In this document: positions 8,056 to 38,637 of the stretch, piece after piece
Position numbering within the stretch: position 1 is the first letter of the stretch
How the letters are laid out: the number at the start of each line of letters is the position of its first letter
DNA from: Elusimicrobiaceae bacterium
Lineage (GTDB): Bacteria; Elusimicrobiota; Elusimicrobia; Elusimicrobiales; Elusimicrobiaceae
Direction of reading: 5' to 3'
Assembly (NCBI GenBank): GCA_017525025.1
Contig: JAFXUJ010000015.1
Location: forward strand, 1-38,637
Length of the DNA stretch: 38,637 nt
Position numbers and translations under genes: made by a program
The notes under the pieces: model-generated
Told to the model about the DNA's origin: nothing
The model's input: the letters and a program-made list of their open reading frames with translations, nothing else
The model's database searches: none

Positions 8056-8381
8056 ACAACTATTTGACAACTATTTGACAACTATTTGACAACTATTTAC
8101 GTAAAATAGTTGTCACCCCTCAAACACCCTATTTACAAGGGTTTGCGGACTTGCAAACAACTATTTACAACTATTACAACTATTTTCTTTTATTCTTGAT
8201 AAATTTTAAAAAAAGTACCTGGGTACTTTTCAAAACGAAATAATAAAAAATATATAAAAATAGTTGTAAATAGTTGTAATAGTTGTAAGTTAGCAACGAC
8301 TAACAAGCGCAAACCCAATAAATAAAGGCGTTTCGGGGCGAACAACTATTTTTACATATAAACAACTATTTACAACTATTT
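8056..8381. repeat. Complex repeat locus 1: 14 copies of ACAACTATTT in both orientations
   Basis: Direct copies start at 8056, 8067, 8078 and 8089 (11-bp period), 8157, 8167, 8176, 8342, 8362 and 8372. Inverted copies (AAATAGTTGT) start at 8104, 8258, 8268 and 8278. The copies at 8089 and 8104 form a dyad with a 5-nt centre. The triplets 8157-8185 and 8258-8286 face each other across a 72-bp AT-rich core that contains a 9-bp palindrome. Spacers of about 40-55 bp carry GC-richer words such as GTTTGCGG and GGCGTTT. No gene fits inside. The same plan recurs at 35075-35416. Likely a multi-site binding array for a phage protein (origin, partition or operator). Confidence 0.9.
8211..8230. repeat. 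Palindrome AAAAGTACC-TG-GGTACTTTT in the core of repeat locus 1
   Basis: Nine-bp perfect arms with a 2-bp centre, sitting in the middle of the AT-rich core between the facing repeat triplets. The equivalent core of locus 2 has GTAC and GTACC words (near 35250 and 35264) but not a matching palindrome. It may be the symmetric centre of a nucleoprotein complex or a melting site. Confidence 0.7.
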
Positions 8382-32240: not shown

Positions 32241-32582
32241 TTACCATTCGTTATTAAATGCTCCGCGTGACTTTGCCAATAGTTCCGACGCCCTCAAACG
32301 GTCTTTTATTTCGTTAGTCGGATCGTTTAATATTGACGTCCAAAACGCTTGTATTTCTTTAACTGTCGCTATTTTATTAACTATTTCCGGCAACCCCACA
32401 ACGTTTAAATACTGTATATATTCTTGCACGTCACGCCTTGCAACCAATTTATGCGCGTTACCTCTTGCGTAACGTGGAGAATACCCGGCCATAATGGCCG
32501 CTTGCTCTGCATTGGCTTTTGCGTCGCCGCAATATGCTAATGCAAACTCTTTAAATTGTGGCTTTATTTTCGGTTCGTCCAT
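32241..32582 (-). CDS. terS: Terminase small subunit (Terminase_2-like)
   Basis: A 113-residue protein with the Terminase_2 pattern: FALAYCGDAKANAEQAAIMA (HTH-like, about 12-31), then GYSPRYARGNAHKLVARRDV, then VKEIQAFWTSILNDPTNEIK and RASELLAKSRGAF. It should bind the packaging site and hand DNA to TerL. It is separated from terL by the HNH-kinase, fibre-tip and P27-like genes, an unusual split. It follows the lysin gene with 4 bp between. Confidence 0.85.
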   Translation of the reverse strand: MDEPKIKPQFKEFALAYCGDAKANAEQAAIMAGYSPRYARGNAHKLVARRDVQEYIQYLNVVGLPEIVNKIATVKEIQAFWTSILNDPTNEIKDRLRASELLAKSRGAFNNEW

Positions 32583-33868: not shown

Positions 33869-34138
33869 TTACGCCTCTTTTGTAAGTTGTTTGTAAATCT
33901 GATTAACGCCGGTTGCTGCAAATCCGCTAACAATGCCTGTTGCAACTGCTACGGCCCAATTTTCGGCGGCTATGTAATCGGGAATTGTCATAAACATTAC
34001 AACGCCCAAAATAGCACCGGAAAAACCGCAAATAATCGGGATAAACTTATCAATTTTACCGTTGCCGATTGTCTTACAAGCAACCCCGATTAAATAACAA
34101 ATAACCACTATTGCCGGCAATGCTACAAATTCACTCAT
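33869..34138 (-). CDS. Phage holin, 89 aa
   Basis: Three membrane segments are visible: about 5-21 (VALPAIVVICYLIGVAC), 32-52 (IPIICGFSGAILGVVMFMTI) and 61-78 (WAVAVATGIVSGFAATGV), with a short charged C-terminus (KQLTKEA). This matches phage holins of the Firmicutes type (Phage_holin_5_2-like). It is the first protein gene of the late operon and would open the membrane for the GH25 lysin. Confidence 0.88.
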   Translation of the reverse strand: MSEFVALPAIVVICYLIGVACKTIGNGKIDKFIPIICGFSGAILGVVMFMTIPDYIAAENWAVAVATGIVSGFAATGVNQIYKQLTKEA

Positions 34139-34141
34139 AAG

Positions 34142-34223
34142 ATAAACCCCCTAAACTCTATTTATCTATGTTAAAAATACCCGTATTGGTATGCGTACGC
34201 AATGTTGCATATGGTTGCATATA
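34142..34223 (-). promoter_or_regulatory. Candidate activator-dependent late promoter region
   Basis: Upstream of the holin, minus strand ATATGCAACC and ATATGCAACA (34222-34213, 34212-34203) are adjacent direct repeats one helical turn apart. Just downstream lie TGCGTACGCA (34192-34201) and AATAC-CC-GTATT (34176-34187). No consensus -35/-10 pair is evident, which fits a promoter needing an activator such as the product of 34566-34895. Confidence 0.45.
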
Positions 34224-34224
34224 T

Positions 34225-34254
34225 AAAAAAGCGGGTGCGCACAATGCGCCCCGC
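34225..34254 (-). terminator. Intrinsic terminator, late leader (fourth in series)
   Basis: GCGGG-T-GCGC pairs with GCGC-CCCGC across ACAAT (plus-strand reading 34231-34254); the minus strand continues TTTTTTATAT. Confidence 0.8.
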
Positions 34255-34264
34255 CTATAAATAT

Positions 34265-34307
34265 AAAAAACCCGTTTTCGTGCCGGATCTTGATACACGG
34301 AAACGGG
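34265..34307 (-). terminator. Intrinsic terminator, late leader (third in series)
   Basis: CCCGTTTTCGTG (34271-34282) and CACGGAAACGGG (34296-34307) pair with one mismatch; the minus strand continues TTTTTTATAT. Confidence 0.8.
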
Positions 34308-34353
34308 CCCACAACATATCATATATGTCGTTCAAACGCATATATTATAACAT

Positions 34354-34392
34354 AAAAAACCCGTCACGCAATAACTACGCAAACGGGCTTTT
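34354..34392. terminator. Weak terminator-like hairpin, late leader (second in series)
   Basis: CCCGT (34360-34364) and ACGGG (34383-34387) enclose an 18-nt loop, with T runs outside on both strands. The stem is short, so activity is doubtful. Confidence 0.5.
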
Positions 34393-34427
34393 TACGGATA
34401 GTACTTTATGGCAATAAAATTATACCA

Positions 34428-34458
34428 TAAAAAAACGGCGGTGCGCCTACCGCCGTTT
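34428..34458 (-). terminator. Intrinsic terminator of the structured RNA (first in series)
   Basis: AAACGGCGGT (34433-34442) pairs perfectly with ACCGCCGTTT (34449-34458) across 6 nt; the minus strand continues with a T run. Confidence 0.9.
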
Positions 34459-34551
34459 AAAGATTGCGTTAAATTTTCGGTTTGCCCGGACTTGCACCGG
34501 AAACGGAACGCAAAACCCGCATTTCCTCGTTAATGCTACCCCCGAAAATCT
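34428..34551 (-). ncRNA. Structured small RNA of unknown family upstream of the late operon
   Basis: Minus-strand RNA of about 120 nt with its own promoter (34558-34585) and terminator. P1 is an 8-bp closing stem ATTTTCGG/CCGAAAAT (34549-34542 with 34480-34473). P2 is GCATT/AATGC (34536-34532 with 34523-34519). P3 is CCGG-TGCAAGT-CCGG (34500-34497 with 34489-34486). The P2 loop AAC-GA-GGAA is complementary to the downstream TTCCGTT, which could form a pseudoknot. P3 superficially recalls a T arm, but no anticodon arm fits, so it is not a tRNA. It has no frame with a ribosome site. Position, just below the late regulator gene and ahead of three more terminators, suggests control of late transcription, but it could act in trans. 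I do not recognise the family. Confidence 0.65.
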
Positions 34552-34557
34552 GAATAT

Positions 34558-34585
34558 ATTATAACTCAATCTCGCGACAATTCAA
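34558..34585 (-). promoter_or_regulatory. Promoter of the structured RNA
   Basis: On the minus strand TTGAAT (34585-34580), 16 bp, TATAAT (34563-34558). The predicted start near 34551 coincides with the 5' side of the P1 stem. It overlaps the 3' end of the late regulator gene. Confidence 0.78.
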
Positions 34586-34895
34586 TATACAAACTAATAC
34601 ATAACCGTTTTTTGTTGCGTACTATCGTGGAAACATCAACGGCCATTAATTCGGCTATTTGCTCAATCGTGTAACGATCTCGGAAATAATACGGCAATAT
34701 GCCTAAATATAAATCGCCGTCCAAACTGTCTATTGCTGCCGTTATTTCGGGATCCTTTGCGCCGCCCTGGTAATAAGAAAATAACCGCCCGTTCATTTCC
34801 TCATACACAACGGCCCGCATATCCTTAATAATGCGTCGCCGCTCTAATTCGTTTAAGCACTCGTTAACTACCTGTTTAATTTCTTCACGTGTCAT
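34566..34895 (-). CDS. Late transcription regulator-like protein (sigma-70 region 4-like HTH), 109 aa
   Basis: A 109-residue protein. A helical N-terminus (REEIKQVVNECLNELERRRI) is followed by PEITAAIDSLDGDLYLGILP and a C-terminal HTH (YTIEQIAELMAVDVSTIVRN), like region 4 of sigma factors and the ArpU/RinA-type late activators of Firmicutes phages. It sits between the early module and the late operon, the usual site for such a switch, and its 3' end overlaps the small-RNA promoter. It should turn on lysis and structural genes. The specific family is inferred. Confidence 0.75.
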   Translation of the reverse strand: MTREEIKQVVNECLNELERRRIIKDMRAVVYEEMNGRLFSYYQGGAKDPEITAAIDSLDGDLYLGILPYYFRDRYTIEQIAELMAVDVSTIVRNKKRLCISLYIELSRD

Positions 34896-35074: not shown

Positions 35075-35416
35075 ACAACTATTTTTACTTACTGCCACAA
35101 GGCTTTGCGGGTTTTCGTACAACTATTTGACAACTATTTGCAAAAATAGTTGTATGCCCGCAAATGCCCTAATTTATTACGTTTGCGGGCGGTCAATCGG
35201 TCAAAAAACAACTATTACAACTATTTACTACTATATTCTTTATATTTTTGTACTTATGATTAGTACCCTATATCGTTATTGTTTTTAAAATTATTAAGAA
35301 ATAAAGGCAAAATAGTTGTAATAGTTGTACCGAACCCGCAAACGCCTTTATTTATTACGTTTGAGCCTTACAACTATTTGCAAAAAATAGTTGTCAAATA
35401 GTTGTAAAATAGTTGT
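35075..35416. repeat. Complex repeat locus 2: 12 copies of ACAACTATTT in both orientations
   Basis: Direct copies start at 35075, 35119, 35130, 35208, 35217 and 35370. Inverted copies start at 35144, 35310, 35320, 35385, 35396 and 35407 (the last three at an 11-bp period). Dyads with 4-5 nt centres occur at 35130-35153 and 35370-35394. As in locus 1, facing groups flank an AT-rich core (35231-35307), and GC-richer spacers with GTTTGCGGG / CCCGCAAA words separate the groups. No gene fits. It lies at the far end of the replication module from locus 1. Confidence 0.9.
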
Positions 35417-35445
35417 CAAATCGCTGTTTTATACTCCAAAAGTTC

Positions 35446-35489
35446 TTATATATTATATATACTACGTAAGTAGTATATATAATATATAA
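35446..35489. repeat. 20-bp perfect AT-rich inverted repeat with GTAA loop
   Basis: Arms TTATATATTATATATACTAC (35446-35465) and their exact complement (35470-35489) enclose GTAA. It could extrude a cruciform or form a strong RNA hairpin at the end of the early operon. There is no T run after it, so it is not a classic intrinsic terminator. It lies 30 bp beyond repeat locus 2; 35490-35557 holds nothing else I recognise. Confidence 0.9.
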
Positions 35490-37457: not shown

Positions 37458-38637
37458 TTATTCGTTTGCTATAAATACGCGGTATCGTTTACCGTCTATT
37501 TTTTGTTCTACAATCTCACAATCAAACGTGCGTTTAACGGTTCGGCTAAATTCAATTTGTGACATTGGCGTAAAACTGTTAGCAACGCAAAATTCTTTGT
37601 ACGTGCGGTAAACCTCACTTGTACGCTCGTTTATGATGTTTTCCGCGCCGGTTTCTTTAAAGAACAATACAATAGGGTTGTTGTTTTCCTCGTATTCCTC
37701 TAACTCTTTTTGTACCGCGTTATTGATTGTAAACGCCTGGTTACTTAAAACCCTGTTTAGCCCGTCCAATGCCAATTGTATTAACGCCTCGATAACATCT
37801 GTTTTACGCAACTTGTATTTAATAAACGGGTCATAATCCGGTGCGTTTTTGTCAAACGTGGCATTAAACGGAACGATTATTAAACGATCCAATACCGCGC
37901 CGCTTTTATCCTTAATACGCGGTATGTTGTTTGCACTAAATAACAGTTTTGCATAATTGTTAAATGCGAACGGGTCAACGCCCTTGCGCTCAACTGTTAT
38001 GCGGTCACCCGAAACAACTTTTTTAAATATTGCCGGGTTCTTTATAAATTCGTCGCCGATGTCGTCGCCAATGTTGGCAAGTTTACCGACAATTTCGGCC
38101 GTTTTAAATTGGCTGCCAATGTCCGCAAGGTCTAACGCGCTTATATTTTCTTCACCCAACATATACGTTATTAAATCCAGGTACGTACTTTTACCGTTCT
38201 TTTTATCTCCGGTTAAAATAAAGCACTTTCGCAACTCATTACGCCGAAACATACAATAACCGGCCATTTCTTCAAGTAATGCCCTTATGTCCGGATCCCC
38301 GCACGCGATTTTATTTAACGTGGTTTCTAATAGTTCGTTTTCTGCGTCCGGTACGTAATCAAAGTTAATTTTGTTGGTTACGATTATTTCGGGCGTAAAG
38401 TCTATTAATTCATCGTTTACAATGTCGTATAATCCGTTCTTAAATGCTATAAAATTACTATTATCGTAATTGTGCTTGCTTTCTACTATCAATTCGAGAT
38501 AGTCCAAAACCTCGCGCCGCTGCGTCGCCTTTAACGACGGTATATATTTAATCATTTTTGCCATGATTGCATTTTTACCGCCAACGTATACGCCGTTATC
38601 GTAAATGTGTAATTGTCCGTTTAGTCGGACTATATGA
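37458..38637 (-). CDS. Primase-helicase, C-terminal part (SF3 helicase)
   Basis: 3' part of the 632-residue primase-helicase that begins at 860. The frame is open through 38637 into the repeated end. In full-length numbering, the D5_N-like linker spans about 265-370; Walker A GDKKNGKST is at 383-391, the SF3 acidic motif KLANIGDD at 425-432, and motif C LLFSANNIPRI at 471-481, followed by DRLIIVPF at 490-497. The C-terminal 130 residues include a winged-helix-like region (SEVYRTYKEFCVANSFTPMS). As a hexameric ring it would unwind DNA at the origin. Confidence 0.94.
   Translation of the reverse strand, partial: HIVRLNGQLHIYDNGVYVGGKNAIMAKMIKYIPSLKATQRREVLDYLELIVESKHNYDNSNFIAFKNGLYDIVNDELIDFTPEIIVTNKINFDYVPDAENELLETTLNKIACGDPDIRALLEEMAGYCMFRRNELRKCFILTGDKKNGKSTYLDLITYMLGEENISALDLADIGSQFKTAEIVGKLANIGDDIGDEFIKNPAIFKKVVSGDRITVERKGVDPFAFNNYAKLLFSANNIPRIKDKSGAVLDRLIIVPFNATFDKNAPDYDPFIKYKLRKTDVIEALIQLALDGLNRVLSNQAFTINNAVQKELEEYEENNNPIVLFFKETGAENIINERTSEVYRTYKEFCVANSFTPMSQIEFSRTVKRTFDCEIVEQKIDGKRYRVFIANE
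38497..38637. repeat. 141-bp exact direct repeat of the two contig ends (right copy)
   Basis: Identical to 1-141; see the left copy. Removing one copy gives a circle of 38,496 bp. Confidence 0.95.

Follow-up and report, generated by a model that had tools for sequence, protein, structure and literature searches.

A predicted regulator-activated late promoter behind four serial terminators in a rumen-type phage genome

The late regulators Ltr of phage Phi13 and Alt of phage TP901-1 act via direct repeats located upstream of the late promoter (PMC13123087). HK022 put RNAs, elements of ~70 nucleotides (nt) found after early promoters, suppress terminators without the participation of a protein (PMC9378689), and the end terminator of Tn916 is reported to act as an insulator that blocks unwanted transcription into an operon (PMC11658703). 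The locus considered here belongs to the 38,637-nt contig JAFXUJ010000015.1 of an Elusimicrobiaceae bacterium assembly (GCA_017525025.1), analysed over its whole length and referred to as the window, and consists of a 427-nt gap on the minus strand that extends from a regulator gene (34566-34895) to a holin gene (33869-34138). It is probable that the regulator activates a late promoter located past four serial terminators, and that these terminators shield the late genes; as a part of this same explanation, and with the same degree of confidence, the gap is taken as a boundary that separates the early genes of a phage genome from late genes involved in lysis and packaging. The elements on which this explanation is built are the following:

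34566..34895, minus strand: regulator gene P0001, 109 amino acids, proposed to activate the late genes, with a C-terminal helix-turn-helix resembling sigma-70 region 4 (match to phrog_36 'transcriptional regulator' at E 5e-5)
34433..34458, minus strand: terminator T1, hairpin of -15.4 kcal/mol plus T-tract
34357..34390, minus strand: terminator T2, -15.1 kcal/mol, A-run before and T-run after
34270..34308, minus strand: terminator T3, hairpin of -17.0 kcal/mol plus T-tract
34230..34255, minus strand: terminator T4, hairpin of -18.9 kcal/mol plus T-tract
34201..34220, minus strand: predicted late-promoter operator, two 10-bp (base-pair) repeats, ATGCAACCAT and ATGCAACATT, scored together with the -10 box by the model
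34174..34179, minus strand: predicted late promoter, -10 box TATTTT, lying 30 nt from where the second repeat starts and 35 nt before the holin ATG
33869..34138, minus strand: holin Hol44, holin superfamily V, opening the late/lysis operon (PF16079, E 7e-19; phrog_1129, E 3e-20)

Relatives carrying the regulator were found in viral contigs (~57), in a yak-cecum assembly (one), and among TerL-related phage (several). Where a gap precedes the next gene, their usual layout comprises the regulator, one terminator soon after its stop codon, operator repeats with a -10 box, and the late operon. In 16 distinct relatives, the operator signature is made of two (sometimes three) repeats of the form [TG]GCGCCAT / GGCACTAT, spaced 10-11 bp apart. 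In all 16, a -10 box lies 29-30 nt beyond the point where the last repeat begins, and the distance from the -10 box to the next ATG is 24-56 nt in 15 of them. Leave-one-out scoring gave the site the top rank of its gap in 15/16 cases. Direct repeats upstream of a predicted late core promoter, a feature of Ltr-type control, are present in the window, with the repeats at 34220-34201 and the -10 box at 34179-34174, and are common to the 16 relatives. A model combining operator and -10 box, trained on these relatives with the window excluded, ranked this site 1 of the 77,172 positions of the window on both strands, and only 9 of 1000 shuffles of the gap reached its score. Moreover, the 35-nt distance from the -10 box to the holin start agrees with that in the relatives. 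Computation shows the terminators, the spacing and sharing of the signature, and how the parts are ordered. The presence of the relatives' signature just upstream of the window holin also supports one proposal of the original prediction, namely that the small helix-turn-helix protein is an activator.

Several observations weigh against this explanation. An earlier model based on the operator only ranked the site fifth in the window, and the -10 box of the window (TATTTT) is weak. Besides, the repeats of the relatives were picked by eye, after the window had also been viewed, and the signature is missing in ~10 of 26 distinct gaps, several of which contain ordinary promoters of the TTGACA type. 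At the protein level, P0001 falls below the cut-off of every named Ltr family model in Pfam and NCBIfam.

Among relatives with the same regulator, the gaps of loci L160, L176, L156, and L144 contain an ordinary TTGACA-type promoter instead of the signature, and the promoter in L160 is flanked by repeats CCACCGAATTAGTGG, which suggests repressor control. The longest operator array observed among these regulators lies in the gap of L197 (and in L028 beyond 8700, on its downstream side), where several 11-bp repeats resembling GTGCAACATTC precede the late -10 box in phase. A holin-based search yielded loci that, where upstream regions were read, have a different gene order.

The clustering of four terminators is real, far beyond chance, and unusual in number. 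When the 427-nt gap was dinucleotide-shuffled 500 times and terminators were counted with a cut of -12 kcal/mol, 448 shuffles had none, 51 had one, a single shuffle had two, and four were never obtained. Relatives usually have one terminator per gap and at most two. In the comparison loci, ~1.4 Mb at most and mostly from TerL- or holin-related phage, four serial terminators were not found, and three within 350 nt occur only in L089 and L107. Since most relatives with such a gap have one terminator in a comparable place, T1 is probably the terminator of the regulator transcript itself. T2 is probably active on both strands, given that an A-run precedes its hairpin and a T-run follows it, and T2-T4 may act as redundant stops that insulate the late genes. 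The original prediction had described a strong terminator ending an RNA and three further hairpins, two of them strong; all of these are present, although the three further ones are all strong.

From these elements we infer how the regulator could bind and activate and how the terminators could insulate. The early transcript would end with the gene for the small sigma-region-4-like regulator and would be stopped by T1, whereas T2-T4 would provide redundant stops keeping early read-through from the lysis genes. The regulator would then bind the two 10-bp repeats at 34220-34201, standing in for a -35 element, and, once bound, recruit the host RNA polymerase to the -10 box at 34179-34174, so that the late operon would start with the holin. 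All four terminators lie upstream of the predicted late promoter, and the stretch from its -10 box (34174) to the holin start (34138) showed no terminator. Therefore, antitermination is not needed to explain late expression. The original prediction had also likened the layout to antitermination control, with the RNA as a put-like element or the small protein as antiterminator, a proposal that is not supported because the predicted late promoter comes after the last terminator and the RNA was not found in the relatives examined.

The regulator is, to judge from profiles and a structural model, sigma-region-4-like. Among 40 homologues, phrog_36 is matched by 39 and Sigma70_r4_2 by 20, and the predicted structure of P0001 is all-helical (predicted local distance difference test, pLDDT, 85). 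A fold search of this model against the PDB gave no match at E 0.001 or better; the likeness to sigma region 4 and to KorA was only weak. P0001 has no match to ArpU or DUF1492/Ltrb at E 0.1 or better in Pfam and NCBIfam, and DUF1492 is weakly matched by 2 of the 40 homologues (best E 0.0037). These profiles also bear on a Q-like mechanism, in which the regulator would load on the polymerase at the promoter of the RNA described below and confer on it resistance to the terminators. Weak matches to PHROG models named anti-termination protein Q-like occur in a few homologues (2/40 for phrog_79, 1/40 for phrog_753), but the 'transcriptional regulator' model phrog_36 is matched by 39/40, with a far better best E-value. 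Moreover, in lambda Q-type control one or more terminators separate the late promoter from the late genes, whereas here the terminators precede the predicted promoter, and a conserved operator stands upstream of a -10 box past them, with no terminator detected from there to the holin. A Q-like role is very unlikely.

From the end of the regulator gene to T1, two further features can be recognised:

34558..34585, minus strand: possible promoter of the RNA, a promoter-like TTGAAT-16-TATAAT site that overlaps the regulator gene's end (10/12 consensus positions)
34462..34552, minus strand: structured-RNA candidate, pairings computed

In this candidate, P1 comprises 10 pairs, including one G-U (34551-34542 with 34480-34471), P2 has 5 pairs (34536-34532 with 34523-34519), and P3 has 7 pairs and a 2-nt bulge (34503-34497 with 34489-34481), while a pseudoknot of 7 bp (34513-34507 with 34470-34464) abuts P1 with no gap. 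The closing stem, two inner hairpins, and possible pseudoknot of the original prediction can all be drawn, although the stem, given there as 8 bp, has 10 pairs and the minimum free energy fold including T1 is no better than that of shuffles (z -1.19; 31/200 as good). When the 91-nt core was shuffled, 1.3% of the shuffles produced a P1 of at least 9 pairs together with a 7-bp pseudoknot, in a test devised after the structure had been seen; the fold is weakly supported. As for the site at 34585-34558, which the same prediction had called a good promoter, it does exist and has the top score of its region, but promoter-like sites there number 10 against 12.2 expected from shuffles, a density not above background, so that the promoter alone constitutes no evidence. 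Within the RNA there is also an ATG frame of 17 codons (MRVLRSVSGASPGKPKI); it lacks a well-placed ribosome site and was set aside.

The order of promoter, RNA, four terminators, and late genes, together with a P1 and a pseudoknot able to stack, would suit a put-like or EAR-like element, whereby the RNA transcribed from the 34585 promoter would fold and bind the elongating polymerase in cis, carrying it through T1-T4 into the late operon, in keeping with the action of the HK022 put RNAs. However, the better-supported late promoter sits past the terminators, the fold is thermodynamically not above chance, no Rfam family matches the RNA, and it was not found in relatives sharing the regulator and late operon, all of which makes this mechanism very unlikely.

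The search for relatives of the RNA returned little. A scan with known RNA models, run on Rfam at gathering and permissive thresholds, gave no match at or near any gathering score, in agreement with the earlier statement that the RNA family was not recognised. A covariance model, R1, built from the single window sequence, was run over related phage loci (~1.4 Mb) and over 149 genomes at order level and 341 at phylum level; at significant E-values it found only the window, and it had no match in the gaps of the regulator relatives. Against phages and plasmids, the region gave BLASTN matches of chance size (22-28 nt) or none, and nhmmer and BLASTN against the fetched loci remained at chance level. 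The exact P3-hairpin pattern had 5 matches in viral contigs, about the estimated chance number; none of the three examined in context looked like the complete RNA, and one checked against Rfam had no match. An exact 18-mer gave one match, which the RNA model did not recognise. Thus, the RNA is known as one sequence only, with no homologue in the genomes and phage loci searched. It is probably either the 3' end of the regulator transcript or a stand-alone small RNA, and stands as an orphan candidate.

An independent trans-acting phage small RNA, with its own promoter and T1 as its end, would account for the promoter-like site directly before P1 and the terminator directly after the RNA, and T2-T4 may then close further very short transcripts started at TATAAT boxes after T1 (TGGTATAAT) and T2 (TGTTATAAT). 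On the other hand, promoter-like sites are no denser than background, TGTTATAAT shows no significant enrichment, no homologue was found, and the best predicted pairing between the RNA and phage translation starts does not exceed that of shuffles, 30% of which were as good. Such a small RNA is unlikely, and it is more doubtful still that the locus encodes a new RNA, be it a pseudoknotted one carrying the polymerase in cis through four terminators or a trans-acting one of a new kind. If a cis-acting RNA proved true, it would offer a second, RNA-controlled route to late transcription beside the regulator-activated promoter.

The window is a complete contig, assembled together with a 1.55-Mb genome, and its bases 1-141 are identical to bases 38497-38637. 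Because of these identical ends, it probably represents an entire phage genome, 38,496 bp long and either circular or terminally redundant. The phage is of rumen type. The primase gene near the right end of the window probably runs on across the end junction. Regulator (34566-34895), holin/lysis genes, terS, and terL follow one another on one strand. The protein encoded at 31524-32231 matches HNH endonuclease profiles as well as phrog_4581, named terminase small subunit, and a separate terS-like gene adjoins it at 32241-32582. Iteron arrays of ACAACTATTTG / AATAGTTGT, in direct and inverted orientation and with a spacing of ~10-11 bp, occupy positions 35075-35430 and 8056-8381 and could be replication origins or sites for a replication or repressor protein; a perfect inverted repeat of 20 bp is located at 35446-35489. 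A plus-strand open reading frame of 71 amino acids spanning the terminators was seen by translation only.

Phages with this regulator are known mainly from metagenomes, and the signature of repeats at a fixed 29-30 nt from the -10 box provides a testable predictor of the late start for these regulators of gut and rumen phages. The gap offers, in addition, a clear case of four serial terminators predicted to shield a late operon, while the RNA alone has no wider import yet.

The regulator-activated late promoter resembles the systems of Gram-positive phages governed by late activators (Alt of Lactococcus TP901-1, Ltr of Staphylococcus Phi13, RinA, and the ArpU type) in that direct repeats stand just upstream of the core promoter and the late operon comes next. 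The locus differs from that class in its protein, which lies below the cut-offs of the named families (ArpU, DUF1492/Ltrb), in its two repeats with a spacing of ~10 bp at a fixed distance from the -10 box, and in its four serial terminators in between, with the lysis genes coming first. Like the put RNA of HK022, the RNA candidate is a short structured RNA between a promoter and terminators; nevertheless, put is built of two stem-loops and its targets are early operons, whereas the window RNA runs directly into T1 and lacks homologues, and the predicted late promoter of the window is past the terminators. Tn916 is alike in having a terminator that shields an operon, but there a single terminator serves an integrative conjugative element, whereas here four terminators of predicted function are found in a phage. 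On the best reading, the window regulator would act as TP901-1 Alt and staphylococcal Ltr do.
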